From Nicotiana tabacum (taxonomy: Eukaryota; Streptophyta; Magnoliopsida; Solanales; Solanaceae): a stretch of 64,000 nucleotides of DNA. Below the pieces are notes generated by a model that saw nothing but the letters and a program-made list of their open reading frames with translations, searched no databases and had not been told where the DNA came from. Numbering within the stretch: the stretch's first letter is position 1; every line of letters begins with the position of its first letter. The DNA is taken from positions 58,615,466 through 58,679,465 of the forward strand of contig NC_134082.1 in NCBI RefSeq assembly GCF_000715075.1, in the 5' to 3' direction. A program made the position numbers and the translations under genes. Positions 5,561 to 50,405 of the stretch are shown here, piece after piece.

Positions 5561-6576
5561 ACTGGAAACACGAAGAGTTTTCCGACAAAGAACGACTAGA
5601 CGTGTTTTTGACCCGATCATTATTTGGAGGGACCACACTAGGGAAAAAGAAGAAGGGGATGTGACCGAGCCCTGGTATCTGAGCTGCCTACATATCCTTG
5701 GTTATACAGGAATCAGGCCACGTGTAGTTCGGGAATGAGAGAGATGGTGAAGTGTACCGAGGTGAAGAGCCGATCGAGGTGCCGTTCCGTTGAGGTTCCG
5801 GTCCGCGGTCCTGTCATTACAACAAAAAATGAAAACTGAAAAAGACTAACTAAGCCTATCAGCTACTAGTTACAAGGATTCCTATCTTCAAGTCTTCTGA
5901 AACTTGGTCTTGAGTCTTGAATGGTGCTTCATACAGACTTTGGATTTGAACCTTGATACTTGCTAGTTGTAGGCGCTAGTTCTTGAGCAGATCGCATCCG
6001 TTCTCCACTTCCGTGCTTCGGATTCATTCATTTTTTCTTTTTCTTCTTTTTTTTCTTTTTGTTTTTGTGACTAGCTTTTGTTGACCCTCTCAGACTGTTG
6101 ACTCGCATTTTTGAGGCGAGCTTCTTGTTGTTTCTAACTTGGATTGAATGTTGGGGATTTTGTTGTAGCCTTCTGCCTCCAATGGGTTACGACTTGACCT
6201 TGAACGATGTTCCTCTGTTCTATAGGCGGACCCCTAACTTCTTCAATCTTTGACATATAACAACCTCCGCTCTACAGGCAGGCTCCTGACAAACAACATA
6301 AACACAAATGAAATTTCCTCACCCAGTTTGCACTGGGAAGGTTTGTGAGTCGTTAGCAAAATCGTAACCCACTGATACTGCCGATGCAGTGCTGAGAGTG
6401 AACTAAAGACTAGACCAGGATGTGCATCTCCTACGGGTAAAATCTCAATTTAGGAAGTGAGTCTCCTAAAATAAAATATAACCTGAAATATATTCCCTTG
6501 TTATACAGGTGGGCGCCTAACTTCCATGCTTGAAATGTAAAGACTGAAATGTATTCCTCTCGTTATACAGGTGGGC
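5561..6576 (-). other. Element C 3' untranslated region, unique part
   Basis: No coding potential seen. It holds one two-stem hairpin motif (5686-5730) close to the polypurine tract. Four short imperfect repeats of a unit like ATACAGGTGGGCGCCTAAC lie at about 6215-6575. Sense transcription is on the minus strand. Confidence 0.6.
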
Positions 6577-7804
6577 GCCTGGGTTTAGGGAGAAGGTTCA
6601 TCAGACTAGGTCATTTTGTTTTTTTGGTTATCTTAGGAGAAAGATTCATCAGACTAAGATTTTGATCCTAGGAGAAGGTTCATCAGACTAGGTCATTTTT
6701 GTTTTTTGGTTATCTTAGGAGAAAGATTCATCAGACTAAGATTTTGATCCTAGGAGAAGGTTCGTCAGACTAGGTCTCTATCTTAGGAGAAAAATTCGTC
6801 AGACTAAGATTTTGATCCTAGGAGAAGGTTCGTCAGACTAGGTCTCTATCTTAGGAGAAAAATTTGTCAGACTAAGATTTTGATCCTAGGAGAAGGTTCA
6901 TCAGACTAGGTCATTTTTTGTTTTTTGGTTATCTTAGGAGAAAGATCCATCAGACTAAGATTTTGATCCTAGGAGAAGGTTCGTCAGACTAGGTCTCTAT
7001 CTTAGGAGAAAAATTTGTCAGACTAAGATTTTGATCCTAGGAGAAGGTTCATCAGACTAGGTCTTTTCTTTTTGGTATCTTAGGAGAAAGATTCATCAGA
7101 CTAAGATTTTGATCCTAGGAGAAGGTTCGTCAGACTAGGTCTCTATCTTAGGAGAAAAATTCGTCAGACTAAGATTTTGATCCTAGGAGAAGGTTCATCA
7201 GACTAGGTCATTTTTTGTTTTTTGGTTATCTTAGGAGAAAGATTCATCAGACTAAGATTTTGATCCTAGGAGAAGGTTCGTCAGACTAGGTCTCTATCTT
7301 AGGAGAAAAATTCGCCAGACTAAGATTTTGATCCTAGGAGAAGGTTCATCAGACTAGGTCTTTTCTTTTTGGTATCTTAGGAGAAAGATTCATCAGACTA
7401 AGATTTTGATCCTAGGAGAAGGTTCGTCAGACTAGGTCTCTATCTTAGGAGAAAAATTCATCGGACTAAGATTTTGATCCTAGGAGAAGGTTCATCAGAC
7501 TAGGTCATTTTTTGTTTTTTGGTTATCTTAGGAGAAAGATTCATCAGACTAAGATTTTGATCCTAGGAGAAGGTTCGTCAGACTAGGTCTCTATCTTAGG
7601 AGAAAAATTCGTCAGACTAAGATTTTGATCCTAGGAGAAGGTTCATCAGACTAGGTCTTTTCTTTTTGGTATCTTAGGAGAAAGATTCATCAGACTAAGA
7701 TTTTGATCCTAGGAGAAGGTTCGTCAGACTAGGTCTCTATCTTAGGAGAAAAATTCATCGGACTAAGATTTTGATCCTAGGAGAAGGTTCATCAGACTAG
7801 GTCA
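6577..7804. repeat. Tandem array of ~66-82 bp dimeric repeats in the element C 3' UTR
   Basis: About sixteen dimers, each made of two related ~32-bp halves containing AGGAGAAAGATTCATCAGAC and CCTAGGAGAAGGTTCATC. Units differ by an optional T-rich linker at the dimer boundary and by single bases (cat/cgt, aga/gga). A higher-order pattern of long and short dimers recurs. Tandem repeats in Ogre 3' UTRs are a known source of plant satellites. There is no protein frame through it. Confidence 0.9.
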
Positions 7805-7848
7805 TTTTTTGTTTTTTTGTTTTTTTTTATTATTTTTATTTTTTTTAA

Positions 7849-8205
7849 CAACAACTTAGGAGGAAATGCATCTCCTATGGGTAAAATAAACTTAGGAGGA
7901 AATGCATCTCCTATGGGTGAAAGTAAACTTAGGAGAAAATGCATCTCCTATGGGTAAAAACTAAACTTATGAGGAAATGCATCTCCTATGGGTAAAATAA
8001 ACTTAGGAGGAAATGCATCTCCTATGGGTGAAACTAAAACAAACTTAGGAGGAAATGCATCTCCTATGGATGAAACTAAAACAAACTTAGGAGGAAATGC
8101 ATCTCCTATGGGTAAAAATAAACTTAAACTTAGGAGGAAATGCATCTCCTATGGGTGAAACCCAAAACGAACTTAGGAGGAAATGCATCTCCTATGGGTA
8201 GAACT
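7849..8205. repeat. Second tandem array in the element C 3' UTR
   Basis: Eight or nine units of about 38-50 bp with the invariant core AGGAGGAAATGCATCTCCTA followed by TGGGTgAAA and a variable A-rich linker. The core is itself an imperfect palindrome (AGGAG...CTCCT around ATGCAT). Preceded by a poly-T stretch at 7800-7850. Confidence 0.9.
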
Positions 8206-11039
8206 CTAATGATTTCAAACTAGGAAGTGCGTCTCCTATTAATGAAACCTTCGCTTTCTTTTTTTTTTTCTTTTTTTTTTAAATTATTTACTTACCTGTA
8301 TTGTCCTCCCTCGAAACTGTTGGGGATTATTTAGATGGGGATGACTTTTACCCTTTTTTTTTCTTTTTTTTTTTCATTATTATCTTTTTATTCTTCTCTT
8401 TTTTTTTCGCATAGCTTCTTCCTTCGAAGACTACCTCCCTTGAAAGTCGTTTTACCTTTCCCCGAAAGGAACCGCTGAGGATACCGACTTTCCAACCTTG
8501 TGTTGGACTCCTCGCAACTGCTAGGGATAACACTGTTGGGGGGATTATTTACTTACCTGTTGGGGGGTAAAATGTTATCAGCTGGGGGTACTTGACTTCC
8601 AGAAAATTTTCTAAATGGAAGGAAAATTTTCTGCCCCAGTTTGATAATATCCCTTATGGCATTCCGTTCTGGCATCAATGCCATTTCCGTTACCTGTTTC
8701 AAATCAAACAAAATTTGTTAGTTTAAAACATGGTGGTTGGTTGTGATACTCCTGCTGGGATGGCTTTTCCCTTTCTCCTTCCTTGCTTTGTGCTCCACAA
8801 TTTATTGGGGACGATGACATTTGCTGGAGATAATCCCTTTCTGCTGGGGGTATCCCTATTCTTTTGTGGCATAGCTCGGAAACTGGCATTTTTCCGACTT
8901 TTAGTCTTGTATGAATTTCCCACAGATTCATGCTCACTGCTTTCCTTGCTTTGTTCACGGGCCTTGGCCTTGAGGTTTATAGCCTTGGTTTTGGCAAGGG
9001 TATCCCTCTTGACACTCGTCAATCCTTTTGTTGATTCCCTTTTGCTGGGGATATTTTGTTGACACTGGCGCTTGTTCCTTGCTGACTAAACCACTTGGAT
9101 GTACTAGTCAGATCTCCTTTTGGAAAGCTGATGGCCTATTTTGAAGTCAATTCACACTTGTTCTGACCAAGCAGACTCTATTGGGGATTTTTCTATGAAA
9201 GGTAAAAGATAAAAAGGGAACAGAATAAAAGGACAAAAGGAAAAAGACGACCTTTTAACAAAAGAAACTATAAATAAAAACCTATCAAACGCAGATACCG
9301 ACTCTAATGTTCATGACATGCGTATGTGGCCTATCCTTTACCGTCAATCATCTTTCAAGATCTTCAATTGGCGATTCCCCATCTGATTCTTAATCTTATT
9401 CGACTTGTAGTGCCCGAAGGGTTTTCACTATCAAGTCTCTCTCATTTGTATCACTTTCCAGCTGGGGGTTTGGAGTGTCGCTGGTGTGACTCTTTCTGCT
9501 GGAGATTAGAGTCCTTTCTGCTGTGGAACAGAATGTTATGTTCGCCGGTAAGACTCTTCATTTGTCTGACTTGACATCTTTTGAAGACTGATCAGAAGGT
9601 CTTTCTTTGGACCGTAATGTGGGTTTTGGATAGGCTATAAAGAAAGGGTATAAAAGGCTCAAAAAATACATTAATTTTGGGTTATTAGTTACAACCTTCG
9701 GAATTAGATTTATTTACAACAAACGCAACCTTTGCCCCAGTTTCTTGCTTGGGGATATTTTAATTGATTTTTTTTCATTTTCTAAAACTATGATCGAGCC
9801 GTGAAGCGCCTACGTATCCTCTTTGAGGAATCAGGTCAAACGTAGTTCCCAATTCCTCTTTTTCATTTGATTCTTTTTTTTTGTTATCATTTTTCTTTCT
9901 TTCTTTTTCTTCTTTCATTTTTTCTCTTTTTCGTTTTGTTGTTTTCTTTTCTTTTTTTTTTTCTTCTTTTTTTTTCATGCCATGCTTGCATTTTCTAGTC
10001 GTTTTTACTGATTCCGAACGAGGGGTATGAAAGAAAAATAAGTAAGGCTCAAAAGGGGTAACGAAGGATAAAGTGTTTAGGTAGCAGAACAAAATGCCTT
10101 CGTCATTCCAGTCTTCAAAACATGCCAAGTGCAAACAACACAATTGAACACAGATTTATAGTCTCTTCCGATGGTGTTGGTCTTGACAAATCATATTCAT
10201 ATTTGCTTTTTCATTTGTCAATTCTAAAGCACCGTTGGGCGACACTCTTATTATCATGAATGACCCTCATGCCAATTTGGCGAATCTTGCTTTTAACGGT
10301 TTTATTTGTGTTTTACTTGCCCTAGTTCCACATGACTCGAGCTCTGAATAATCTCAAACCGTCCTTATTTTCTTTAAATGGTCTGATCTCCTTTCTGGGA
10401 TTTTATGATTAACTTTAAAGACTAGGCCCAAACTGTGTGCGCATGTCATGTCCCTAGAATCGGCATTGAATCAAAAAATGATAAAAGAACTAAACAAAAA
10501 GATGACTGGAAATAAATAAAGGACCGAATTTTTTATTAGATTACCGGTGAAATGGTTTGAAGAAATAAAAACAAACCGAAACAACCAGAATAAAATCCTA
10601 ACACAGACTTGACAAAACTTAAACAAACTGATATGACAAAAGGAAAAGATAAGAAGGTTTGACACAGGACAAAATCCACATTACAACCTTAATAATCCGG
10701 ACAACAGAAATGACAACAAAATAAGCCACCAACTGCTTCTTTCTTGTTAACCAAGGAACGGAGCGTCCTCCCATTTTATCAAACTTGGCATCGTAGCCAC
10801 TGAGCTTTGCATTAGTATTGAAATGACTTCAATATCATTACCCTTAGTCAACAAGTTCCCAATAGGACTCGAATGCTTCTGTCATCAGGCCTGATCCCCG
10901 CAGAGTGTGCATCATGAGGTGCAAGTAAAGGATTCCGGGTGTCATTGTCCGGCTTACCACAAAACAACCACCTTAACTTTTTTGCAAAACAAACAGGTTA
11001 GAATGGACTCAGTCGGTCCTCATTATTAACAACATCTTT
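8206..11039 (-). other. Element C interior, non-coding
   Basis: No recognisable domain in six frames; the longest open stretches (8704-9062) are low-complexity shadows. It holds polypyrimidine blocks at 8260-8410 and 9890-9975, several dispersed copies of a GCTGGGGAT-like word, and a two-stem motif at 9808-9848. The motif's flank (a GGGGCAAA tract near 9730 and TCGATCA near 9792) matches the post-pol region of element B around 33410-33480. This is the remnant of the region between pol and the 3' LTR. Confidence 0.6.
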
Positions 11040-11180: not shown

Positions 11181-11246
11181 GTGGTCGAATCTTATGGAGA
11201 TTGCCTACGTATCATGACCCCGCATGAATCAGACCTTGTGTAGTTC

Positions 11247-12958
11247 GGCCAAATAAACGATAAATAATAATAAAACATTTTTTTTTGAATTTTCAATTTC
11301 ATAATAAAACAAACTTGATTACAAAAGTTTAAAAACTAACAATACTAACAGATTTTGACAAAAGACAACAAACGGTCTCGAAAATCAAATAACCCGCATA
11401 CTCTAAAATATTATAAACTCAAAACAAAAGGCCAGCTCCCTTTCTCCGTTTGACAAATGCAACCAAACGGTTATTTTTGCAAATGTGGCCCCTGGCAAAC
11501 TTCACATGAATTTTGAGGCCGGGGAGGATTATTTTGACATTTTACAAACTTGTCCATTCTTTTACGAAAATAACCTTTCGACAACTGAAAGATTCTCTAA
11601 GGCTATTTCGGCAAGAACGGTTTAAGACGCGGCCGAAGCTGGCTCGGCTTATTATGACAAAATTCAAACGGTATTCACTTGACCGCCGACTCTTTGTTTT
11701 TTTCTTTTCAAATTACAATAAGAACCTGGTGTTGCAAACACGGCCCTTCAGCGCCTCGGGGACGAAGATTTTTAAGGCTGTGTGGGTCCATATCTCAAAA
11801 TGACCCAAAGGTGGCTGTTTATGCTAAGTCAGCCTTCCGGCGTCCCTTTCGGGAACATCGGCTATTTATGACAAAACAGCATTACCTGACTTATTTATAA
11901 CTCTTTTTATCGATTTTCAAATTAGAAAACTCAATACTGCAAACACGACCTTTCAACGTCTCGGGGACGAAGATTTTTTAAGGCTGTGTGGGTCAACTGG
12001 AAAAAAAATCCTAAACATGACCCAAAAAGTGGCTGTTTATGCAAAGTCAGCCTTCCGACGTCCCTTTCGGGAACATTCGGCTATGTTTTGATAAAACAGC
12101 ATCACCCGACTTCTTTATGACAAAATTAAAATTTTGACATTTTTTTTTGTTATTTACTTGTTTTTGGCTTTTTAGCAAAAGGTGGGGTTGGACCCGATGA
12201 GGGTTGCCTACGTATCTCACATCCGGTGAGAATCAAACCCGCGTAGTTCGGGCAAATAAACTATTTTTGAGAAGACCCTTTTCCATTTTCTATTCTTTTT
12301 TTTTATATAACAAACAAACAAACTATTATTTTTCATTCATAACAAACAAACTAACTAACGTAAAACCTAAAACATTCCTTCTTTTTCATTTGTTTTTCTT
12401 ATTCTAAAGAAAATGTTTTTTTTTGGAATTTTTACCTTTAATAAAAGAAATGCTTGAATTTTTAAAGAAGAATCAAAATATTTTTGATTTTTTTTGGATT
12501 ATATACATATTTATTTTGGAACAAATAATAAAATCACGTTCAACGCCTGACTCTTTTTATTTTATTTTTGGCATTTTCATAGACAAATAAAATAAATAAA
12601 ACATTTTAAAAACCAGACTCTTTTTCATTTTCATTTTCATGGCAAAACAAACTATTTTCTTTTCTATATTTTTTGACAGAACAATGATGATTTTTTTTCT
12701 ATTTTTCCTTTGCTTTTAATATAACAAACTAATAAGACATTTTTTTTCATTTTCAAAATTTCGGCAGAGTTTCGATACTACTCGGACATTCGTTTTTTTT
12801 TCTTATAAAAATAAGTAGTTATATCTCTACACTGTTATTTTCTAATTTTTTGGAGAATGATGACAACATACAAAATCTTTTTGAATTTTCAATGCTCTTT
12901 CTTTTATATATATATTTTTATTTTTTTATATTTATTATTATTTTCAAAAAAAAATGTG
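11247..12958 (-). other. Element C leader and former ORF1 region, non-coding
   Basis: Between the two-stem motifs at 11203 and 12206 lies the place where element A has ORF1 and its spacer, but here no ORF1 remains. Two ~210-bp repeats with the core GGGACGAAGATTTTTtAAGG lie at 11728-11885 and 11938-12115; element A has one at about 21357-21500. From 12250 to 12950 the DNA is extremely AT-rich with poly-T runs. Confidence 0.6.
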
Positions 12959-13836: not shown

Positions 13837-13840
13837 GAGC

Positions 13841-16800
13841 TGTCACACCTCCTTTTTCCGCACCCGCGAGGGCGCAGGGGGAGTTTTTTCCTATTAAAGG
13901 ACAATCGAAACGGGATTCGTTTATTTATTTCAGAGTCGCCACTTGGGAGATTTAGGGTGTCCCAAGTCACCAATTTTAATCCCGAATCGAGGAAAAGAAT
14001 GACTCCATATTACAGTCTGCGTACCAGAAATCCGGATAAGGAATTCTGTTAACCCGGGAGAAGGTGTTAGGCATTCCCGAGTTCCGTGGTTCTAGCACGG
14101 TCGCTCAACTGTTATATTTGGCTTATTTATCTGATTTTTAATACAATATGAACTTATGTGCAGATTTTATCTTTCAACCGCTTTGTTATTATTGTTTTAA
14201 AAGAAATGTGAACATCGCTTAAAACACGTCTTTGGACTGCATCACATGAAATGCACCCACAATCCGGAACACGTTTTATTTGATGTTTTGGGATTTGGAT
14301 ACGGGTCGCATGAAATACACACCCAGGCTTAAGAAAGTAAAATATTAAACACGCGCCTAAAGAGACTATCGCGTTGTTATTTTGGGGAAGCCGTGAAATT
14401 CGCTAAACGACCCTCCTGAATTCTAAGTAATTTTAAACAAGTATTTACTGAGGGCCCCACAATTTGTATTTTTATTCGGCGAGGCTCATCTCATTCTTAT
14501 TTTTTAGAGGAATTTGCAACGTCGTGGACATGCATCTCGAACCACGTTACAATCAATGTACCCGCGATTTTAGAGACACCTTTCAACTCCGCTGAGATTT
14601 GGATTTGGGTCACATAAATGTGCACCCGAGTTAGGGAGAATAAATTATTAAAGGCGCGCCTAAAGCAACTAGCGCATTATTATTTTGGGTGGGGCCGTGA
14701 AATTTGCTAAACGGCCCATCCCGGAATCTAAGTATTTAATATATACATTTAGAGGGCCCCGCAACTTGTATTTTCTATTTGGCGAGGCTCGTCTCATTTT
14801 TATTTATTTATTTATTTTTCTTTTTTTTTCTTTTAGAAATAGGACAAGGCTAAAATAAATATGTTTTGTGCTACTTCGCGAGATCATAAGTTATAAATTG
14901 AACTTATTTGATGAAGCGAGTATTTTCCCGCGGAATTAAAATTGCTACTATAATTTCAACATTACTACCACATGTATAAATGATTATTAAGACAAACTAA
15001 ATAATTAACACCTTTCAGAATATGTGCAAACCCCTATTATGACAAATATTTGGATAACAACAGTTTAACATGAAGAAACAAAATGGCAAATAGCTACTTA
15101 AAATAACGAAACAACGGAAAAGAACTAGGATACCATACGGAGTTAATTATCAAAAATAGCAATTCGCAATTATCATGTATATATGTCTCGCGCAATTTCG
15201 CGTACTATCCGCATGCACTAGGATTGTATTTCAACAAAACACATGTACATATTACTAAACAACAAATATAAAGGACACGGACAGAGATGACCTACTTGAT
15301 ATTATCGTCCGATGCGTTGGACCTGCGACGAAACCTCAGACAACAAACTTGACGTACCGGACCTCGACGAACCAAAGGCGACCTTAACGGACTGCACGAC
15401 GACAGTGAAAGAACAGCGATAACCTGGGCTGGTTGGTTGTCGCGTTTGGACAGTACAGCTGGAGCAGTGGTGTTTGGACGGTGTTCAGTGGTCGTTTGAT
15501 CCACTGCTGGGCGTGAGGAAACGACGGGGAGACTGGTGGTGGCGTGAAGTCGAGCTGGAGGTTTGGTGGTGTATGCCGGTGGTCGACGAGGCTGGGTAGC
15601 AGGTGGTCGTGGGCTGCTGTTTGACGGACGTGCTGAAAACGAACAGCAGCAACAATGGCTGCTGCTCGACCGACGCAGCAATGGGGTCGACGATGAACCT
15701 AGGAGGATGAGGAATGGTCGTGAGCTGGTGGTTTTTGACTGTAGGGTCGAGGGTTATGGAGGCTTGGAGGCGAGGAGGGTGACGATGAAGCTGGTTCGTG
15801 AGGGATGGTGGGTTGTTGATGGTGGTCGCGAGACGGAGAGGGAGCTGGGGCGACGACCGGGAAAGCAACAGTCGTTGTTGCTTGACAGATGCTGGTCGCA
15901 GTGGAGGAAACAGTTAGCGGCAACAATGGTGGGTTTCACGGAGGTGGTGTTTGGTGGTGGGAGTTGGTTGCGACGGGGGGATGGAAGGGTCTACTTGGTG
16001 TAGGGTTCCGACTGGGTTTTTGTTTGGTGGTCGTGAGGGCAATGATCGACGGAGAGCTCCTAGGTTTTTCTCTTCTTCTTCTTTTTGAAGAAGATGTACA
16101 GTACCCCAAAAATTTCCAAAAAATTCCCTCCTTCGTTTTTTTCAAAAAAAGTCCTCCCTTCTTCAAGTCCTTTGTCCGTGTATTTAGTATCCTTGCCAAG
16201 GGAAATGAGCCCCACGCGTGGTGGGGTTCGAGACTTGTGTCCCCCACGCGTGGTGGGGTTCCCCATGTGTCATGGACTCGGTTTATTATGGGCTAGGTCC
16301 GAAAATTAAGCCTAAAACCGGGTAGTTTGAACCCGAATATTATTCTTTTGCCCGGACCCGAGAAATAGGAACACGATGTTGCCCAACTAGTAGTCCTATG
16401 CAAGCAAAATAACTACCAAAAATAAGACTAATATTTAAACAAAACTATATCTTCTTTTTTTTGAATATTTTTTCAAGATTTAAAATAGCTACAAAATATT
16501 AATAAAACTATTTTTGTAATTTTTGTTTTTATATATAAAGATAAAATATGAAGTAATATTTTTTGTATTTTTCAAAATTATAATGACTACAAACATTAAT
16601 AGAACTATATATTTTTTGTAATTTTCGAATTTATATAAAATACAAAATAAAGTGCAATTTTTGTATTTTTTCAAGTTTATGAGAAATACATAAACTAAAA
16701 TTTATATATGTATTTTTGTGATTTTCTTTTTGCAACGAAATAAAGTAAAAATAGTTAAAATGGCTATATTAGACCCAATTACATATTTATGCTAAAATAA

Positions 16801-16842: not shown

Positions 16843-16869
16843 CTTCTTTCGGAGCGGCCTGGATCATCA
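16843..16869. repeat. Right copy of 27-bp direct repeat flanking element C
   Basis: Identical to 2095-2121; see the left copy. Here the adjoining LTR end is intact. Confidence 0.85.
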
Positions 16870-23089: not shown

Positions 23090-23093
23090 GAGC

Positions 23094-28266: not shown

Positions 28267-28269
28267 ACA

Positions 28270-28285
28270 TGGCGACTCTGCTGGG
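28270..28285 (+). promoter_or_regulatory. Primer-binding site, element B copy 1
   Basis: TGGCGACTCTGCTGGG three bases after the LTR end; tRNA-Arg class as in elements A and C. Confidence 0.75.
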
Positions 28286-30876: not shown

Positions 30877-31960
30877 CGAGGAATAGAACTGGATCCATCA
30901 AATGTCAAAGCCATTCAAGAACTACCACCTCCAAAGAACAAGAAGGATGTGATGAGTTTCTTGGCCACCGCCAAAGAACAAGAAAGATGTGATGAGCACA
31001 GTCTACGGTTATTTGTGAGCCAATCTTTAAGATGTTAAAGAAGGACGCCGCTACCAAATGGACTGATGACTGCCAAAAGGCCTTCGACAAAATCAAAGAG
31101 TACCTGTCAACACCACCAGCCTTAGTCCCGCCCAAGCCAGGTAGACCCTTATTACTCTACCTTGCAGTGTTGGACGGAGCTTTTGGTTGCATTCTGGGGT
31201 AGCATGATAAAATGAGGAGGAAGGAGCAAGCCATTCATTATCTCAGTAAGAAGCTCACCCCGTACGAGGCCCGGTATTCCCTATTGGAACACACCTGTTG
31301 TGCTTTGACTTGGGTAGCTCAGAAGCTGAGACATTACTTCTGCGCCTATACTACATATCTCATATCAAGAACGGGTCCTTTGAAGTACATATTTCAGAAG
31401 ACCATGCTCACTGGCAAGCTAGCCAAGTGGCAAATCCTGTTGAGTGAGTTCTACATTATTTACGTAACTCATATAGCGATCAAGGGACATGCACTAGCAG
31501 ACCACCTTGCTGAAAACCCCGTGGATAGAGGATACGAACCCCTGAAAACATATTTTCCTAATGAAGAGGTATCATTCATAGGAGAAAACATTGCAAAATC
31601 CTGTGACGATTGGAAAATGTTCTTCGATGGAGCAGCAAACTTCAAAGGAGTTGGCATAGGGGAAGTCCTAGTATCAGAAACCGGTCAGCATTACCCGGTG
31701 TCTGCCAAACTCAGATTCCCCTGCACCAACAATATGGCCGAGTATGAAGCCTGCATCTTAGGGCTCAAAATGGCCAATGACATGAACGTTCAAGAGCTGC
31801 TACTGATTGGAGATTAAGACTTACTTATACATCAGGTACGAGGAGAATGGGCAACCAAGAACTCTAAGATACTCCCGTATCTGCATCAAGTACAGGAGTT
31901 GAGGAAAAGGTTCACAAAGACGGAATTCCAGCATGTTCCCAGAATCTAGAATGAGTTCGC
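30877..31960 (+). pseudogene. pol: RNase H and second (archaeal-type-like) RNase H, element B copy 1
   Basis: Compared with copy 2 there is a local rearrangement at 30935-31010, where a short stretch with AAGAACAAGAA is repeated and a conserved segment with LGRLNYISRF is lost. From 31212 an open frame of 201 codons contains the Ty3-type RNase H (YLSKKLTPYEARYSLLEHTC) and the start of a second RNase H (FFDGAANFKGVG, then NNMAEYEACILGLKMA), stopping at a TAA at 31815-31817 next to the third catalytic aspartate. Having both domains is typical of Tat elements. Confidence 0.8.
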
Positions 31961-33335
31961 CAATGCATTGGCTACCCTATCATCTATGATACAATATCTA
32001 GACAAGAATTTCATTGATCCCATTCCGGTGAGAATAAATAATCGGCCAGCTTACTGTGCCCATGTCGAAGAGGAAGCCGATGGAAAGCCTTGGTTTCATG
32101 ATATCAAGGAATATTTAGCAAAAGGAGAATATCTGGAGCTTGCTAATCCTGTTCAGAAACGCACACTTCGAAGATTGTCCAACAATTTCTTTTGTAGCGG
32201 AGGAATCCTATATAGGAGGACTCCTGATTTGGGATTATTAAGATATTGACGCAAAGGAAGCCTCCAAGCTACTAGAGGAAATTCATGCTGGGATCTGTAG
32301 TCCACATATGAATGGTTTTGTCTTAGCAAAGAAGATGCTCCGGGCTGGTTACTTTTGGATGACTATGGAAACATACTGCATCCAGTATGTCCGGAAATGC
32401 CATCACTGTCAGATACATGCAGACATGATAAAGGTACCTCCAAGCAAGCTCAACACAACAAGCTCACTATAGCCGTTCACCGCCTGGGGAATGGACGTTA
32501 TTGGACCAATCAAGCTTGCTGCTTCCAATGGACACAAGTTTATCCTAGTATCCATTGATTATTTCACCAAATGGGTCGAAGCAGCATCTTACAGAGCAGT
32601 AACTAAGAAAGTCGTGGCGGACTTTGTCCACGACCACATTGTTTGTCGATTCGGGATCCTAAAGTCAATCATTACCGATAATGGCTCCAACCTCAATAGC
32701 GACTTGATGAAAGCTATGTGTGAAACTTTTAAGATCAGACACAAGAATTCCACGGTCTACAGGCCTCAGATGAATGGAGTCTAGAAGCCGCCAACAAGAA
32801 TATCAAGAAGATATTGAGGAAAGTGATAGAGAAGCATAAGCAGTGGCATGAGAAGTTATCATTTGCTCTACTAGGGTATCGCACCACAGTTCGCACATCA
32901 ACCGGGGCAACCCCCTATATGCTGGTTTACGGTGCAGAGCCTATCATTCTTGCTGAGGTAAAAATTCCTTCCCTAAGGATCATACAAGAAGCTGAGCTTG
33001 ACGATGCAGAGTGGGTGAAAAGTAGTTATGAGCAACTAGACCTTATAGACGGAAAGAGAATGAATGCAGTCTGCCATGGTCAACTCTACTAGAACAGAAT
33101 TTCCAGAGCCTTCAACAAAAGAGTCAAGCCAAGACAGTTCACACCGGGGCAGCTGGTGTTAAAGAAAATTTTTCTGCATCAAGATAAAGCCAAAGAGAAG
33201 TTCTCTCCCAACTGGCAGGGTCCATACATGGTTCATCGGGTTTTGATAGGAGGAGCCCTCATACTTGCAGAGATGGACGGAGAAGTCTGGCCAAAGCCGA
33301 TTAATTCAAATGCGGGCAAACGCTACTATGTGTAA
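31961..33335 (+). pseudogene. pol: Integrase, element B copy 1
   Basis: The zinc-binding region is at about 32270-32430 with several frame breaks. The catalytic core is open at 32491-32784: the first aspartate lies in MDVIGP, the second in ITDNGSN, and a 1-base loss at about 32779 breaks the frame just before the conserved glutamate. The frame resumes at 32814-33092 (LLGYRTTVRTSTGATPYMLVYG) and the C-terminal part ends at a TAA at 33333-33335. No chromodomain is seen, as expected for Tat. Confidence 0.8.
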
Positions 33336-34059
33336 TCTTTATGCTTTCCTTATATGATGTAAATTTAACTATGCCTGACCTGATTCCCGTTTAAGAGGGG
33401 ATACATAGGCAGTCCTATGGGTTCGATCACAATTCAATAAAAATTCCATCTCCCCTCGCAATTGGAAACTGGGCAGAATTTTGAGGAGGACCCTCAAAAT
33501 TCCGAAGTAATTTCAGCCAATCGTCACATGAGCAGCAGTCAGAAACGTCAACCCATCAAACTGGGACAGAATTTTGAGGAGGACCCTCAAAATTTTGTAG
33601 CTAGAGAGGTTGCAATGTCCCGAACAACGTCACAGTCATCGGTTCATCTAAAGGCTATTTCTAATTACACATTTATGCCATACTTTTAAAAAATCATACA
33701 TGTTTATTATTGAAACTGCTTTGTTTAGCAACGCTACGCCAATGATAGAAGCGATATCACCAAATCAAAGCCGAACGAGTCAAGCAAAGCCAGCGGGGAT
33801 ACAAAGTAACCCTCCCCTTTACAAAACTCACAATTTTTCTTTGGATGCAGGCACTAGGATTGCCAAATCATTAAACATACTGTACGCCCATGGAACAAAC
33901 ATTGTTCAAGAATACGATTCTCAGAACCATTGCACTTGCCAACATTTTCTATCAGCGCACACCAGTGACGTTCCGTATGTCACAATGCTCATAGTAATCA
34001 CAACGCCGCAATCCGCTATTAGCTAAGAAATCTCAACTGTCATTTATTATCTTATTTCT
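33336..34059 (+). other. Post-pol region, element B copy 1
   Basis: Starts with a two-stem motif 32 bases after the pol stop. It also contains two copies of the palindromic word TTTTGAGGAGGACCCTCAAAA (33478-33502 and 33551-33575 approximately) and no gene. Confidence 0.6.
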
Positions 34060-34520
34060 TGCATAAGGCTACTATTCTGCCTTCCGAGACTAAACGTTGT
34101 CTCCCTCTACATCTGCATTGCATAAGGCTATCATTCTGCCTTCCAACTTGCATAAGGCTACCATTCTGCCTTCCGAGGTTAAGATCTACCTCCATCTGCA
34201 TCTGCATTGCATAAGGCTATCATTCTGCCTTCCAACTTGCATAAGGCTACTATTCTACCTTCCGAGGTTAAGCTCTACCTCCATCTACATCTAAATTGCA
34301 TAAGGCTACTATTCTGCCTTCCAATCTGCATAAGGCTACCATTCTGCCTTCCAATCTTAAGCTCTACCTCCATCTGCATCTACATTGCATAAGGCTACTA
34401 TTCCGCCTTCCAATCTGCATAAGGCTACCATTCTTCCTTCCGAGGTTAAGCTCTACCTCCATCTGTATCTGCATTCGCATCTTTTCATAAGGCTACGTTC
34501 TGCCTTTCGAGGCTAAGCTC
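34060..34520. repeat. Tandem repeats in the 3' UTR, element B copy 1
   Basis: Units built on GCATAAGGCTACcATTCTGC and CTTCCgAGGTTAAGCTCTAC, arranged as an alternating ~85-90 bp composite repeated about five times. The same array occurs in copy 2. Frames such as 34097-34294 are by-products of the repeat. Confidence 0.85.
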
Positions 34521-35284
34521 TACCTCCAATTTTCTTCGAAACTAAGTACTATCTCAAGCACTATTTATCTTGCTTTTCTTACGGGATAAGCTCTGCCCTT
34601 CAATTAGCAAGACTAAGCTCTATCTTGTCCACAGAACTGCATCCTTCATGGGCTGAAATATCGCCAACTCATCCAAAGGCGTCATCGTTCGGAGGCACCA
34701 TCTTCATAGCACGAGAACACCATGTCATGACAAGAGAATCTCTTTCAATCTTTTGCATATCATTATTCAAAGGTGTTATGGTTCGGAGGAACCATCCTTA
34801 TAGCCCGAGAACATCATTTCATGGCCTGCGAACCCTTTATCATACACTTCATGACCCAGGATATCATGTTATAAGGACATCATCCTCATCGTCCAAAGAC
34901 AACCTTCATGGTCCAACGGTAATTTGCATCATATTTAAATTTATGCACAATATATGCTTATATTGCTTATTTGCAGGTAAACCGGCGAGCAATGGCTACC
35001 CCAGCAAGAGCGATCCTGCTCCAGTTCCTGCAGCTATATCGAACCTAACCATTCCCGTAAACCGCCCACTCACCCGACCCTAGATATTGCGTCCGTTCTT
35101 GAAACCGCTTCATCGGTGTACTCTGTCGATGGATCTTGAACTACATATGGCCTGATTCCTGTAAAACCAGGGATATGTAGGTAACTTAGAAGCCAGGGTG
35201 TGGCCTAAATCTTCCCAAACCATTTCGCTCGGTCAAAATTGGTCATCATTTCTTTACTTGGAAACTCTTTCATTCTTCTCGGGT
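34521..35284 (+). other. Distal 3' UTR, element B copy 1
   Basis: Non-coding. It includes two diverged repeats of a unit with TTCGGAGGCACCATC (34680-34900) and a two-stem motif at 35138-35184 close to the PPT. Confidence 0.55.
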
Positions 35285-35297
35285 AAAGAGGGACAGC
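35285..35297 (+). promoter_or_regulatory. Polypurine tract, element B copy 1
   Basis: AAAGAGGGACAGC directly before the TGTTGATACCC start of the middle LTR. The matching tract of copy 2 is 42491-42503 (AAAGATGGACAAC). Confidence 0.7.
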
Positions 35298-35565
35298 TGT
35301 TGATACCCAATTTTTTCCTATATTTTTAATATGCAAAATACCTTCAAAATAACATATATATGCATACATAAGCATATCCAAGGTTTTATTATTTTTTCCA
35401 TAATTTTAAAGGTTTAAATTGATTTCTTTTAAAGGGTTTTATGCACCATAAAAATCGTTAGGCAGCGATTCTCCAAAATTGCAAGAACCCCTTTCCAAAA
35501 GGAAAGAGTTGTCCCAACCAAAATGTCATGAACCAGATCTCACGAGGAGAAAGGGTGCCGCGACA
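35298..35565 (+). repeat. Middle LTR of element B, 268 bp, internally deleted
   Basis: Its first ~130 bp equal the start of the full LTR (42504 on) and its last ~130 bp equal the end (about 47015-47144); about 4.37 kb is missing, with the junction near 35425-35450. It is followed by a PBS, so it serves as 3' LTR of copy 1 and 5' LTR of copy 2. Confidence 0.85.
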
Positions 35566-35568
35566 GCG

Positions 35569-35585
35569 TGGCAACTCCACTGGGG
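35569..35585 (+). promoter_or_regulatory. Primer-binding site, element B copy 2
   Basis: TGGCAACTCCACTGGGG, with substitutions against TGGCGACTCTGCTGGGA of copy 1, so probably decayed. Confidence 0.65.
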
Positions 35586-36198
35586 ATTTTTAGGCTTTTA
35601 CCATTTTAGATTGTTCTTGTGAATTTGTACCTCCCTGTGTGCAAATATTTATTTAATTCCTTTAAGCATTTAACTTTTCAAAAGCAAAACTGACATATTT
35701 TTATTGTTTCCTTCCTTTATAGCTGCTTTAAATTGTAAAACTACTGTATTTATCGCTTTCTTAATGTGCAAATACATGTCATTCTTTTAATTATTGCACA
35801 ATCATCCTCAACATCATACTCCACTCGTTCCAAACAAATACTATAGCAACGCTTGATGAGTGGTTGCGCTCTTCCTATATTATTACCCCTAAATTCGAAA
35901 AGACATATTTGCAGTAAAACTAGTCGATCAACGGTGCAGTCTAAAACCCCATAGAAACCTTACTCCGTTTAAATTGTGCATGTATCATGGTCAAACCTAG
36001 TCGGGTCAGTTATGTTGTCCACATAATGATCCTTTAAGATAGCCTTGTCCAAAAGTCCACTGGGTTTCTCAAAAACCCAAACGGACATCATCACGTTTTT
36101 TGCATTTATTTGGAGAACTAAATACTTCATGCTAATTGTTGATGTATAAATAGTTGAGTCTGGTGGGGGTAGGGTCTAACCCTTTTGTTTTGTAGAAA
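35586..36198 (+). other. Leader of element B copy 2
   Basis: Collinear with 28286-28959 apart from a ~60-bp deletion at about 35940. No gene. Confidence 0.55.
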
Positions 36199-36519
36199 AT
36201 GAGGCACGAGGTCCCCAGTTTCGGTATGGTTAGCATGCCCCCGCTCTTGCTAGACTGGTGGAGGAGTCTTCCATCAAATGACCAAATCTATGAGTGGAAA
36301 GAGAGGGCCGCCAAAGCTAGCAAAAAGTTGGAATATCTAGAATATAGTCTTCTAGAATTGGAAATAAAAGTGAGGAAGAGAGTCACCGACTGCTAGAATG
36401 CTGAAGGAAACGAAGGAGAAAACCTGGCAAAGGCATTTTTTCTGATGAACCTACGCGAGCTGGAGGATTTGATCAACGAGAGCATTCAACCTGAGAAAGG
36501 TTCTTCTGGGACCAAGTAG
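36199..36519 (+). pseudogene. ORF1 remnant, element B copy 2
   Basis: Same short coiled-coil-like frame as copy 1. Here the tryptophan codon lost in copy 1 is kept, but a TAG follows at 36394-36396 where copy 1 has CAG; the frame is then recognisable to 36519. Each copy thus has its own nonsense mutation. No function can be assigned. Confidence 0.5.
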
Positions 36520-37156
36520 ATAGGAGTTTTTCTTTTTCGCTTTATAAATGTAATAAGGCCAATAGCCACTAGTGAGTTTTATTCCTTGCTTATTTAGTGT
36601 CGTTTTGGGATTCGTCTATTTTTATCAATAAAATGAGGCATTTAGCATTCTAAGTTCTCCAAATCAATTTGTTGCTAGGCCTACCTCGGGCACAAAGAGG
36701 TTCTCAAATTAGGACACGCTTTACATTCCCGCACTATGTGTTTAAATATCGCAATACTTTTTATAATCCTCACTAACTTGATTACTTTTTGTTTTATTTT
36801 TTTGTTTTATTATTCCCTTTCCAAAATGGTTAGTTCGTGCACTCTGGCATCATCATCTTATTTCACAAGATCCAAAGTCCCTTCCATACTGGCTGTGAGC
36901 AGAGGGGCACGCCTCAATAATTGGACCATCAGGACAACCAAAGCGCGACGAGCTTCGGGGTAGCAAGGCTAAAACAAGCATTATTCACTATTTTATATAC
37001 TAAATGATTTTATTTTCGCATTTTTCAATTCCCGCAATAAGATCTTCAATGTTCAAAACAGTTATTCAATTTATCAAAAACATTTTTTGATTTTCTTATG
37101 AATTAATATTTATTGCTATCATTTTTTCTCCTTACTTTACCAATACAACATTACTA
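36520..37156 (+). other. Spacer where gag and protease are missing, element B copy 2
   Basis: Collinear with 29284-29916. It holds the 46-codon frame starting at 36826 (MVSSCTLASSSYFTRSK), possibly a gag N-terminus, with weak support. Confidence 0.5.
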
Positions 37157-38160
37157 TTACTTATCTTGATGAACCGATGACTGTGACATGCAATGAGACA
37201 ACGCAACAAACAGACATTGATTCAGAGGAAGATGACATACTTGACGAGATTGTCAAAGAGGTTGAGAACTTTGAGAACAAACCTAAGTCCAACCTGGACG
37301 AGACCGAAATTGTCAACTTGGGAGATGTAGATAACATCAAGGATACGTGAATCACCATTCACCTATCGCTATCAGAGAAGAAAGAATACACAAAATTTCT
37401 AAATGAGTCTGAGGACATATTCGCCTGGTTGTATGATGACATGGCTGGTCTGAATACGTCTATTGTGGCTTAAAAACCGTCAACCGATCCAATGTGCCCA
37501 CTGGTAAAGCAAAAGCTCAGAAAGTTCAAGCCTATATGAGTTTGAAAATCAAAGAAGGAGTCAACAAGCAGATCAAAGCTAAGGTTCTCAGGGTAGTTGA
37601 ATACCCGACATGGTTAGCCAACATTGTGCCAGTGCACAAAAAAGGATGGGAAGGTCAAAGTCTGTATCGACTACCGGGATCTCAACCGAGCCAGTCCGAA
37701 AGAGGACTTCCCTTTGCCAAATATACACATTCTGATTGACAATTGCGCCAAGCATGAGCTACAGTCATTCGTAGATTGCTTTGCTGGTTATCATCAGATC
37801 TGGATGGACGAGGAAGAAGCTGAGAAAATGTCTTTCATTACGTCGTGGGGAGTGTACTGTTACAAGATGATGCCATTCAGCCTGAAGAATGCATGGGCCA
37901 CCTATATGAGGGCCATGACTACCATTTTTCATGATATGACACACAAGGAGATAGAGGTATATGTAATGATGTTATTATCAAATCCAAGAAAGCCACTGAC
38001 CATATGGAAGATCTGAGAAAGTTCTTCAATAGACTACGGAGATACAACTTGAAACTAAACCCCGCAAAGTACGCATTTGGGGTTCCTACTGGGAAATTGC
38101 TTGGGTTCATTGTGAGCCGCCGAGGAATAGAACTGGATCCATCGAAAGTTAAAGCCATTT
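37157..38160 (+). pseudogene. pol: Pol linker and reverse transcriptase, element B copy 2
   Basis: Same linker as copy 1, including the shared nonsense codon (TGA at 37348-37350). The RT frame breaks near 37640 (GTGCACAAAAAAGG) and is open at 37624-38016. Motif A is intact (FVDCFAGYHQ). The YVDD motif is destroyed by a 1-base loss plus substitution at about 37962, giving TATGTAATGATG where copy 1 has TATGTGGATGATG. The frame is restored downstream with LKLNPAKYAFGV. The lesions differ from those of copy 1, so neither copy could make a working polymerase. Confidence 0.85.
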
Positions 38161-38192
38161 AGGAACTACCACTGCCAAAGAACAAGAAGGAT

Positions 38193-39458
38193 GTGATGAG
38201 TTTCTTGGGAAGGCTTAACTACATCAGCCGATTCATATCACAATCTACAATTATATGTGAGCCAATCTTTAAGATGTTAAAGAAGGACGTCGCTACCAAA
38301 TGGACTGATGACTACCAAAAGGCCTTTGACAAAATCAAAGAGTACCTGTCAACACCACCAGTCTTAGTCCCGCCCGAGCCAGGTAGACCCTTATTACTCT
38401 ACCTTGTAGTGTTGGATGGAGCTTTCGGCTGCGTTCTGGGGCAGCATGATGAAACAAGGAGGAAAGAGCAAGCCATTTATTATCTCAGTAAGAAGTTCAC
38501 CCCGTACGAGGCCCGGTATTCTTTATTGGAACGCATCTTTTGTGCTTTAACTTGGGTAGCTCAGAAGCTGAGACATTACTTCTATGCCTATACTACATAT
38601 CTCATATCGAGAATGGATCCCTTGAAGTACATCTTTCAGAAGCCCATGCCCACTGGCAAGATAGCCAAATGGCAAATCCTGTTGAGTGAGTTCGACATTG
38701 TTTACGTAACTCAGAAAGGGGTCAAGGGACAGGCACTAGCGGACCATCTTGCTGAAAACCCCATGGATGGAGGATTCGAACCCCTGAAAACGTATTTTCT
38801 TGATGAAGAGGTATCATTCATAGGAGAAGACATTGCAGAATCATATGACGGTTGGAGAATGTTTTTCCATGGAGCAGCCAACTTCAAAGGAGTTGGCATA
38901 AGAGCAGTCCTAATAACAAAAACCAGTCAGCATTATCCGGTGTCTGCCAAACTTAGGTTCCCTTGCACCAACAATATGGCCGAGTATGATGCCTGCATAT
39001 TAGGACTCAAAATGGCCATTAACATGAATGTTCAAGAGCTGCTAGTGATTAGAGATTCAAACCTGTTTATACATCAGGTACGAGGAGAGTGGACGACCAA
39101 GAACTCCAAGATACTTCCGTATCTGCATCATGTACAAGAATTGAGAAAGAGGTTCACGAAGACGGAATTCCAGCATGTTCCTAGAATCCAGAATGAGTTC
39201 GCTGATGCACTGGCTACTCGATCATCTATGATAAAACATCCTTATAAGAATTTCATTGATCCCATTCCGATGAAAATCCATAATCAGCCAGCTTACTGTG
39301 CCCATGTCGAAGAGGAAGCAGATGAAAAGCCTTGGTTTCATGATATCAAGGAATATTTGGCAAAGGGAAAGTACTCGGAGCTTGCTAATCCAACTCAGAA
39401 ATGCACACTTTTGGAGATTGTCCAACAACTTCCTTCACAGCGGAGGAATCCTGTATAG
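38193..39458 (+). pseudogene. pol: RT connection, RNase H and second RNase H, element B copy 2
   Basis: The longest open frame in element B, 421 codons. It starts in the RT thumb/connection (MSFLGRLNYISRF) and continues through the Ty3-type RNase H (YLSKKFTPYEARYSLLERIF) into the second RNase H, with FFHGAANFKG at about residue 228, NNMAEYDACILGLKMA at about 263 and EFADALATRSS at about 343. The first catalytic aspartate of the second RNase H is histidine here (aspartate in copy 1). The frame shifts after TQKCTL, before the integrase zinc region. Confidence 0.85.
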
Positions 39459-40545
39459 GAGGACTCCCAATTTGGGATTATTGAGATATGTCGACGCAAA
39501 GGAAACATCCTGGCTGCTAGAAGAGATTCATTCTGGAACCTACGGTCCACATATGAACGGTTTTGTTTTAGCGAAGAAGATACTCCAGGCTGGTTACTTT
39601 TGGATGAATATGGAAACAGACTAAATCCAATATGTTCGAAAATGCCATCGCTGCCAGATTCATGCAGACATGATAAAGGTACCTTCGAGCGAGCTCAACA
39701 CAACAAGCTCACCGTGGCCGTTCGTCGCCTAGGGAATTTATATTATTGGACCGCTTGAGCCTGCAGCTTCAAATGGCGGACACAGGTTTATCCTGGTAGC
39801 CATAGACCATTACCAAACGGGTCGAAGTAGCATCTTACAAAGCAGTGACTAAGAAAGTCATGGCAGACTTTGTCTGCGACCGCATTGTTTGTCGATTCGG
39901 GATTCCAAATCATTACTGATAATGGCTCCAACCTCAACAGAGACTTAATGAAATCTATGTGTGAAACTTTCAAGATCATACACAACAATTCCATAGCCTA
40001 CAGGACTCAGATGAATGGAACTGTAGAAGACGCCAACAAAAATATCAAAAAGATATTGAGGAAAATGATCATTTGCTCTACTGGGGTATCTCTCCACAGT
40101 CCGCACATCAACCGGGGCAACCCCCTATATGCTGGTTTACGGTACAGAGGCTGCCATTCCCGCTGAGGTAGAAATTCCTTCCTTAAGGATCGTATAAGAA
40201 GCTGAGCTTGACGATGTAGAGTGGGTGAAAAGTCGCTATGAGCAACTAGCCCTTATAGATGGAAAGAGAATGAATGCAGTCTGCCATGGTCAACTCTACC
40301 AGAACAGAATGTCTAGAGCCTTCAACAAAAGAGTCAAGCCAAGACAGTTCACACCGGGGCAGCTGGTGTTAAAGAAAATTTTTCCGCATCAAAATGAAGC
40401 CAAAGGGAAGTTCTCTCCCAACTGGCAGGGTCCATATATGGTTCACCGGGTTTTGACAGGATGAGCCCTCATACTTGCAAAAATAGACAGAGAAGTCTGG
40501 CCAAAACCGATCAATTCAGATGCAGTCAAATGTTACTATGTGTAA
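39459..40545 (+). pseudogene. pol: Integrase, element B copy 2
   Basis: The zinc-binding domain begins in the frame ending at 39624 (EIHSGTYGPHMNGFVLAKKILQAGYFW) and stops at a TAA where copy 1 reads TAC. The core has several indels near 39740-39910; the open part at 39870-40166 keeps ITDNGSN and, unlike copy 1, the conserved glutamate in MNGTVEDANKN. A ~36-codon deletion lies near 40068 relative to copy 1. The C-terminal part is open at 40225-40464 and pol ends at a TAA at 40543-40545. Confidence 0.8.
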
Positions 40546-41269
40546 TCTTTATGCTTTCCTTATATGATGTAAATTGACCTATGCCTGACCTGATTCCCGT
40601 TTAAGAGGGAATACGTAGGTAGCCCTATGGGTTCGATCACAATTCAATAAAAATTTCATATCCCCCCGCAATTGGAATCTGGGGCAGAATTTTGAGGAGG
40701 ACCCTAAAAATTCCGAAGTAATTTCAGCTAATCGACATACAAGCAGCAGTTAGAAAAGTCAACCCATCAAACTGGGGAAGAATTTTGTTGAGGACCCTCA
40801 AAATTCCGTAGCTGGAGAGGTTGCAATGTACTGAACTACGTCACAGTCGTCGGTTCATCTAAAGGCTATTTCTAATTACACATTTATGTCATACTTTTAC
40901 AAAATCATGCATGTTTATTATTGAAACTGCTTTGTTTAGCAACGCTACCCCAATGATACAAACAGTTTCACCAGATCAAAGCCGAACGAGTCAAGCAAAG
41001 CCATCGGGGATACGAACTAACCTTCCCCCTTACAAAACTCATGATTTTTCTTTGGATGCAGCCACTAGGATTGCGAAATCGTTAAACATACTATACACCC
41101 ATGGAACAAACATTGTTCAAGAATACGATTATTAGAACCATTGCACTTACCAATATTTGCTATTAGCGCACACCCGTAACGGTCTGTATATCACAATGCT
41201 CCTAGTAATCACAACACCGCAATCCGCTATAAGCTAAGAAAACTCTACTGTCATTTATTATCTTATTTC
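40546..41269 (+). other. Post-pol region, element B copy 2
   Basis: Collinear with 33336-34059, with a two-stem motif at 40578-40625. No gene. Confidence 0.55.
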
Positions 41270-41715
41270 TTGCATAAGGCTACTATTCTACCTTCCGAGA
41301 CTAAACGGTGTCTCCCTCTGCATCTGCATTGTATAAGTCTATCATTCTGCCTTCCAACTTGCATAAGGCTACCATTCTGCCTTCCGAGGTTAAGCTCTAC
41401 CTCCATCTGCATCTGCATTGCATAAGGCTATCATTCTGCCTTCCAACTTGCATAAGGCTACCATTCTGCCTTCCGAGGTTAAGCTCTACCTCCATCTGTA
41501 TTGCATAAGGCTACTATTCTGCTTTCCAATCTGCATAAGGCTACCATTCTGCCTTCTGAGGTTAAGCTCCACCTCCATTTGCATCTACATTGCACAAGGC
41601 TACTATTCTGCCTTCCAATCTGCACAAGGCTACCATTCTGTCTTCCGAGGTTAAGCTCTACCTCCATCTGCATCTGCATTCGCATCTTTGCATAAGGCTA
41701 CTTTTTGCCTTTCGA
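41270..41715. repeat. Tandem repeats in the 3' UTR, element B copy 2
   Basis: Same array type as 34060-34520; the unit number and order differ slightly between the copies, showing turnover after the duplication. Confidence 0.85.
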
Positions 41716-42490
41716 GGCTAAGCTCTGCCTCCAATTTTCTTCGAAATTAAGCACTATCTCAAGCACTATTTATCTCGCTTTTCTTATGGGCTAAGATCTG
41801 CCCTTCAATTTGCAAGACTAAGCTCTGTCTTGCCCATACAACTGCATCCTTCATGGGCTGAAATATCGCTAACTCATCCAAAGGCATCATCATTCGGAGG
41901 CACCATCTTCATATCTCGAAAACACCATGTCATGGCCTGAGAATCTCTTTCAATTTTTTGCATATCATTATTCAAAGGTGTCATGGTTCTGAGGCACCAT
42001 CCTCACAGCCCGAGAACATCATTTCATGGCTTGTGAACCCTTTATCATATGCTTTAGGGCCCAGGACATCATGGTCTAAGGACATCATCCTCATCGTCCG
42101 AAGACAACCTTCATGGTCCAACGGGAATTTGCATCATATTTAAATTTACGCACAATATATGCTTGTATTGCTTATTTGCAGGTAAACCGGCGAGCAATGA
42201 CTACCCCAGCAGGAGCTATCCCGCTCCAGTTCCCGCAGCCATATCAAACCTAACCATTCCCGTAAACCGCCCACTCACTCGGCCCTAGATATTGCGTCCG
42301 TTCTTGAAAGTGCTTCATCGATATACTCTGGCCGATAGATCCTGAACTACACATGGCCTGATTCCTGTAAAACTGAGGATATGTAGATAACTTAGAAGCT
42401 AGGGTGCAGCCTAAATCTTCCCAAACCGTTCCGCTCGGTCAAAATTGGCCATCATTTCTTTACCCGGAAACTCTTTCATTCTTCTAGGGT
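41716..42490 (+). other. Distal 3' UTR, element B copy 2
   Basis: Collinear with 34521-35284; two-stem motif at 42344-42391. No gene. Confidence 0.55.
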
Positions 42491-50402: not shown

Positions 50403-50405
50403 GTT

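Follow-up and report, generated by a model that had tools for sequence, protein, structure and literature searches.

A predicted pseudoknotted RNA motif at four set places in Ogre-type elements of tobacco, with a possible role as a roadblock to 5'-3' RNA decay

Several families of compact RNA knots and export signals offer themselves for comparison when a structured RNA is met in a retroelement. Hepatitis delta virus (HDV) ribozymes have the nested helix order P1, P2 (crossing), P3, P1', P4, P2', with a P1 of about 7 bp that starts with G at the cleavage site and a further helix, P1.1, and elements of the CTE, RTE and MTE type, which bind NXF1 or RBM15 and export unspliced RNA, lie between pol and the 3' long terminal repeat (LTR) of animal retroelements. 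The part of PMC6299227 available to us describes plant-virus exoribonuclease-resistant RNAs (xrRNAs), which depend on a pseudoknot and are found both between genes, ahead of coding subgenomic RNAs (135 nt from the AUG in one), and in 3' untranslated regions (3'UTRs). A pseudoknot is likewise reported for the MTE, and functional introns for Ogre elements of Medicago, in the sections of PMC12786077 that we consulted. Here we describe a motif found in ten copies in a 64,000-nt stretch of the Nicotiana tabacum genome (NC_134082.1, positions 58,615,466 to 58,679,465; hereafter the window), within three Ogre-type elements called A, B, and C. Covariation predicts, in our view with little doubt, a pseudoknotted RNA element made of three helices (P1, P2, and P3) and a pseudoknot helix (PK). 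A mechanical roadblock that would halt 5'-3' RNA decay at transposon gene borders is the role that we tentatively favor, and the structure is much better supported than the role.

Read from 5' to 3', the motif consists of GAA, the 5' strand of the outer stem P1 (CTACG type), 2-4 nt, the 5' strand of the pseudoknot (PK5; four bases, GRYY), TGAT, the P2 hairpin, TA, the 3' strand of P1 (CGTAG type), GCA, the P3 hairpin, 2 nt, and the 3' strand of the pseudoknot (PK3; four bases). The four bases inside P1, on the 5' side of P2, are thus complementary to the four that follow P3, and the window copies can be written as GAA-P1-PK5-TGAT-P2-TA-P1'-GCA-P3-YC-PK3, with the helix order P1, PK, P2, P1', P3, PK' and a span of 57-68 nt. 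The joint after P1' is often GCG or GTA in some classes, and many post-pol copies have a P3 that we read as 3 bp. Among tobacco copies the observed PK pairs include GACC/GGTC, GACT/AGTC, GGTC/GACC, GATC/GATC, GGTT/AACC, GGCC/GGCC, and GGCT/AGTC. Nearly all of the 22 copies that were found without a sequence pattern (10 in the window and 12 in neighboring DNA) retain the unpaired GAA and TGAT. An earlier note on this DNA had seen a free-standing two-stem hairpin; what it described is instead the 5' part of the predicted pseudoknot, about two thirds of the element, and the third hairpin and the pseudoknot strand 3' of it had been missed.

Element C carries all four classes of copy on the minus strand, in order and although it has no internal open reading frame (ORF) of at least 150 aa, as had been claimed: one before the polypurine tract (PPT) at 5663..5730 (PK GGCC/GGTC; AAAGAGGGG lies 171 nt from the copy's 5' end), one after pol at 9792..9848 (GACC/GATC, one C.A mismatch), one before gag at 11183..11246 (GGTC/GACC), and one before ORF1 at 12186..12249 (GGTT/AACC). 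Element A, on the same strand, has a pre-gag copy at 18975..19038 (GGTC/GACT), whose 5' end is 353 nt from the first gag ATG, and a pre-ORF1 copy at 21561..21624 (GGTT/AACC), 350 nt from the ORF1 ATG; the distances of 310 and 307 nt given earlier are correct when counted from the 3' borders as then drawn. Element B, on the plus strand, has a post-pol and a PPT copy in each of two units, at 33366..33428 (GACC/GATC, one mismatch) and 35138..35205 (GGCC/GGCC; AAAGAGGGA at 147 nt) in the first, and at 40576..40638 (GACC/GATC, one mismatch) and 42344..42411 (GGCC/AGCC, one mismatch; a scripted search found no purine tract) in the second. R1, a covariance model built from these ten copies that ends at the 3' strand of P3 and leaves PK3 out, recovered the same ten at 48-70 bits, with no further match in the window up to E=10. 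All ten places and strands in the earlier note are right, as are its inner-stem sequences, and the outer stems pair fully in nine of the ten copies, the exception being the pre-gag copy of element C (copy 11203), with CTACA/CGTAG and one A.C mismatch. The second post-pol copy of element B (copy 40578) has the outer stem CTATG/CGTAG, with a G.U pair, and starts with GAC instead of GAA.

No Rfam family matches the motif in the window, either at the gathering score or at E<=10, in line with the earlier view that no named family fits. A literature search, which covered titles and abstracts and, for motif strings, full text, with subscription papers mostly outside its reach, found no paper on the motif and only unrelated full-text matches. 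On these two grounds we call the RNA family and its fold new; the novelty sits there, and the job performed may prove to be of a known kind. Three other readings of the sequence were discarded. An apical-loop pseudoknot (GGGGA with TCCCC after P1) is confined to gag-class copies and was replaced by PK5/PK3, a tRNA-like or pol III box reading of GGTTCGATC is contradicted by the other classes, which do not keep GGTTCGATC, and a hammerhead core lacks the GA after CTGAT.

The fold was examined first on a plain MAFFT alignment of 11 sequences (the ten window copies and one from elsewhere) with 500 shuffles. The 17 proposed pairs are formed in 95.2% of 186 cells, 12 of the pairs show changes on both sides, and four of five measures exceed all 500 shuffles, the fifth (number of pair types) being reached by 10; slid versions of the structure pair at 18.8-42.5%. 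For a tree-based test we read 82 copies (10 in the window, 12 in 200 kb of neighboring DNA, 39 in 30 pattern loci, 20 in short stretches, and 1 outside tobacco) and kept 75 distinct tobacco copies, dropping the one from another genome (L020), three duplicates, two without TGATT, and one without the 3' strand of P1. About two thirds of the 75 came from a pattern search in which GAACTA, GRYY, and TGATTC were fixed, so that conservation of those letters is partly a selection effect; PK3 was not selected for in any copy outside the window. As a null, the observed substitutions were re-placed at random on the tree in 500 runs. PK is paired in 290 of 300 cells (96.7%; 1/500 nulls as high) and shows six same-branch compensatory changes, against a null mean of 0.49 and maximum of 3 (0/500). 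P2 behaves alike, with 289 of 300 cells paired (0/500) and six compensatory changes (0/500; null maximum 3). When 1,554 four-pair helices were scanned, PK, P2, and a helix shifted by one step that overlaps PK ranked first by compensatory changes, and all four PK pairs are present in 65 of the 75 copies; with shuffled partners the average is 41.1 copies and the highest count 50.

The 5' half of the motif, searched as the pattern GAACTAYRNNNGRYYTGATTC, occurs at 54,032 places (27,512 + 26,520) in 4.0 Gb of the tobacco genome, where the reversed control has no match; as a join of 3 nt is built into this pattern, copies whose join has 2 nt, which include most pre-ORF1 copies, go uncounted. Leaving PK5 unspecified after GAACTACG gives 40,861 matches (control, 7), and in a comparison of the two listings 77 of the 78 open-PK5 places up to C1:5,038,297 are also in the GRYY list. 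R1, which includes the 3' half absent from the pattern, fits all 30 loci picked by the 5' half; among 20 further pattern places read, one (L077) lacks the 3' strand of P1. Over 200 kb around the window R1 finds 12 copies (weakest E 4.5e-7) and none beyond them up to E=10.

Within the elements, the motif stands in sense orientation at four set places: before ORF1, before gag, after pol, and before the PPT. The flanks of 49 of 51 further copies match those of window copies, although the best score is below 130 bits, and the match perhaps due to low complexity, in 7 of the 49; the flank matches (up to four best per copy) are always sense and fall at the same place of the element or, in most of the remaining cases, at the neighboring one, which supports the earlier claim of fixed positions. 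As to the four classes proposed earlier from flank homology, the flanks of A and C join for gag and ORF1, but in the window the PPT copies of B and C share the motif alone, and the post-pol copies of B and C have no common flank at the threshold used, although genome copies such as L057 bridge the post-pol flanks of B and C. Counted from the 5' end of the motif, 10 of 13 pre-gag copies have a presumed gag ATG, taken as the start of an ORF of at least 80 aa without a copy-by-copy check of domain content, at +353 to +472; in one of these ten a shorter ORF is nearer, at +186, and of the remaining three, one has an ORF only at +566 and two have none. An ORF1 start is found at +350 in one of seven pre-ORF1 copies, the flanking DNA examined for the other six holding no such ORF. 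The pol stop is 146-266 nt upstream in 4 of 16 post-pol copies (in the other 12 the pol end was not recognized), and 8 of 11 PPT copies have an AAAGAGRGR tract at +145 to +178. A spacing of ~7.6-7.8 kb between gag-class and pol-class copies, the span of the gag-pol region, recurs among the matches listed.

The earlier note had confined the motif to Ogre-type elements, a restriction that one copy breaks. A GTDB contig from a roe deer jejunum bin (L020/L095, G001:C163:7600-9923) has an open frame of 656 aa with hAT dimerization and hAT RNase-H domains, to which the closest proteins with names are those from Dipteronia, Xanthoceras, and Acer; a single motif copy (42 bits, E 2.8e-7) sits 52 nt beyond the stop codon of this frame. 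In this copy the PK reads CCTT/AAGG and could be extended to six pairs, and P3 is longer. Since the contig turns into Bacilli-like genes (recognized by eye) inside an ssb-like frame, and since the bin holds no second motif match, its likeliest origin is DNA of a food plant fused to a bacterial contig, and it is a likely chimera in a public species genome. The hAT association is a single case; a search for tobacco hAT homologues gave 67 matches, and among the places listed no 5'-half match lies within ~20 kb downstream of the hAT matches at C1:338675 and C1:488860, which speaks against a general link with hAT genes. The GTDB pattern scan gave 12 places, L020 alone being convincing; L014 and L016 (23.6 and 23.2 bits, E 0.004-0.005) were judged chance, L014 lying inside a long open frame. 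In IMG/VR, pattern scans and a search with a reverse transcriptase (RT) fragment returned no real relative, and the matches look like chance in phage and bacterial DNA (R1 at most 17.3 bits; L007 and L008 are unscored but equal L004 and L006 over the bases compared).

What might such a motif do at gene borders? If it acts as a roadblock, the RNA would fold with P1 and PK formed simultaneously, and the crossed fold would resist XRN4 or another 5'-3' exonuclease. Decay fragments starting at the pre-ORF1 and pre-gag copies would keep a leader of ~350 nt or longer and could be translated, and decay halted at the post-pol and PPT copies would yield stable 3' RNAs. We lean toward this role, without holding it probable, because plant-virus xrRNAs occupy the same kinds of position (before ORFs and in 3'UTRs), because the knot that we predict is small and crossed, with unpaired bases that are conserved, and because the full-length RNA would stay whole, unlike with a ribozyme. 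There is a close likeness to xrRNA-D and xrRNA-LT of Tombusviridae and Luteoviridae, which, as far as the available text of PMC6299227 goes, are compact pseudoknotted hairpins with conserved unpaired bases and share the location before ORFs or in the 3'UTR; in the motif, P3 lies inside the knot and the carriers are transposons. Coremin xrRNA-C of beny- and cucumoviruses, as presented in the portion of PMC10520033 at hand, is likewise a small plant-virus RNA motif with two hairpins; its 4-bp hairpin with a YGAD (or 6-nt YGNNAD) loop, spacer, and second hairpin were not recognized by eye in our copies, although some post-pol loops (C-GAAA-G) resemble YGNNAD on a shorter stem. It is tempting to speculate further, although we consider this doubtful, that pseudoknotted RNAs of a new class, present in tens of thousands of copies, are common to unrelated plant transposons (Ty3-type LTR and hAT DNA elements) and, as 5'-3' decay roadblocks, provide every gene of the element with a protected RNA of its own, no promoter or splice site being needed. 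Were the role true, RNA roadblocks like those of viruses would exist in plant transposons, and they would help to explain how several proteins are made from giant Ogre RNAs and how these RNAs resist decay. Whatever its role, a conserved predicted pseudoknot with 54,032 matches to its 5' half, four set places, and no Rfam family is a new RNA family, and the motif is a sense-strand landmark for mapping element borders.

Several observations weigh against this combined picture of fold and role. P1 and P3 are weaker on the tree than PK and P2: P1 is paired in 364 of 375 cells (97.1%; 1/500 nulls) with two compensatory changes, reached by 28/500, and P3 in 261 of 300 (87%; 39/500) with three, reached by 19/500. 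In a per-pair G-test with average product correction, an R-scape-like procedure with the same kind of null (200 runs), a single P2 pair reaches E<0.05, three PK pairs have E of 1.0, 1.3, and 7.1, and the fourth is absent from the 40 pairs listed; with few independent changes per column, the case rests on helix-level counts, and the earlier suggestion of a functional RNA with compensatory change therefore stands at the level of helices under a phylogeny-aware null but not at that of single pairs. G.U exceeds A.C by 87 to 31 cells, but by only 33 to 22 events (strand test, p=0.18). Nested folding energy is no better than that of shuffles in six window copies (z -0.90 to 0.67), the GTDB copy L095 having z -2.66. 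The minimum-energy fold contains P1 in two of seven sequences and the PK helix instead in three (11203, 18995, and L095), which suggests that P1 and PK might be alternatives, although the folding program used cannot form knots. RNAalifold, run on alignment A2, found P2 and P3 and paired the PK5 side with the 3' side of P1 in place of P1, a helix with two-sided change in one of its five pairs. The knot itself differs from the viral one, which stops Xrn1 at the base of P1 and in which the apical loop L2 pairs with bases 3' of P1; here the covarying strand is on the 5' side of the internal loop, 5' of P2, and the apical loops vary (3-4 nt in many post-pol copies).

Among other functions, the one that survives best, although we think it unlikely, is a protein-bound RNA export or stability element, similar to CTE, RTE, or MTE, that would let a long intron-bearing RNA leave the nucleus. 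Such elements are structured RNAs between pol and the 3' LTR, where two of our four classes lie, and the near-invariant GAA and TGAT are what would be expected of a protein site. The MTE pseudoknot and the Medicago Ogre introns described in the accessible part of PMC12786077 fit as well. Yet the motif occurs four times per element, twice 5' of ORFs, and in a plant; export would leave unexplained both the set distances before ORF1 and gag and the copy after an ordinary transposase gene, and we know of no binding protein for the motif. A translation element, serving ORF1 and gag as a landing site or cap-independent enhancer and reused in 3'UTRs like 3' enhancers, has a smaller chance still: it would account for an ORF1 start 350 nt downstream in one copy and for presumed gag ATGs 353-472 nt downstream in 10 of 13, but no known conserved ORF follows the post-pol and PPT copies and the motif is far from the AUG. 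Moreover, the effect of such knots on ribosomes reported in the part of PMC10520033 available is a block to scanning.

We regard as improbable a new self-cleaving ribozyme that would cut next to P1 into gene units. The helix order (P1, PK, hairpin, P1', hairpin, PK'), in which P1 is crossed by a second helix, is indeed that of HDV ribozymes, and unpaired bases are conserved. However, P1 has 5 bp, begins with C, and is preceded by GAA, leaving no G at the would-be cleavage site, and the loops of many post-pol copies (AAA or GAAA), judged by eye, cannot pair with GC as P1.1, the helix between the apical loop and bases 3' of P1, would require. The joint before PK3 has 2 nt, no HDV-type Rfam model matches in the window at the gathering score or E<=10, and four cuts would presumably destroy the genome RNA. 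As the tested features of HDV ribozymes and of xrRNAs fail in the motif, we file it under neither. That P1 and PK are alternative states of a switch, rather than parts of one knot, is very improbable: the two helices do cross, and single-strand folding favors PK without P1 in the three sequences named above, but both are paired at 97.1% and 96.7% in the same 75 copies, the joins are short and fitting, and the program makes no knots. Least probable of all is a packaging or dimerization signal of genomic RNA, which several copies along one RNA and their retention in the ORF-less element C might suggest, and over which we prefer the roadblock because the transcript of a hAT DNA transposon, with its copy in the presumed 3'UTR, would have no use for packaging.

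Ogre/Tat elements have an extra ORF1 before gag, a Ty3-type gag and RNase H-bearing pol, and a spliced intron between protease and RT; of these features, the carriers show ORF1 followed by gag in A and RT/RNase H in B. The DUF7745/plant mobile domain also occurs in host genes; ORF1 of element A (19589..21274, minus strand) encodes 562 aa with this domain, and its named relatives are mostly from Nicotiana, the remainder from other Solanaceae. The gag region of A (16838..18742, minus) consists of two open frames split by an in-frame stop and is then interrupted by element C; its Retrotrans_gag match scores 22.3 bits, under the Pfam cut-off of 24.1. Element C, nested on the minus strand, is bounded by a 3' LTR at 2119..5546 that is 98.2-98.5% identical in self-comparison to the 5' LTR at 13857..16842. 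The usual target duplication is 5 bp, and the flanks of C (2090-2150 and 16830-16900) show a repeat on both sides of well over 5 bp, with differing 3' and 5' LTR ends. Element B, on the plus strand, has its 5' LTR at 26247..28266, 88.8-90.2% identical to the 3' LTR at 45238..47144 (also from self-comparison), and between this one LTR pair it contains two pol-to-PPT units, an internal tandem duplication at 28144..42636 (28144-35429 and 35443-42636; 88.6% identity over 7304 columns). Each 7.2-kb unit has RNase H pieces (Pfam) and one post-pol and one PPT copy of the motif. Minisatellite-like arrays lie between the post-pol and PPT copies at 6589-7821 and 34058-34531. Such arrays are likewise reported for Gmr9/GmOgre of soybean, an Ogre/Tat element with an ORF before gag-pol and repeats between the coding region and the 3' LTR, in an account whose available text contains 0 mentions of a hairpin or secondary structure (PMC3305785). 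Elsewhere in the window, the motif is absent from a further LTR element at 49641-60486, which has RT, RNase H, and integrase zinc-binding pieces, and a match to the plant small nucleolar RNA R71 lies at 61835-61939 on the plus strand (45.9 bits against a gathering score of 40).

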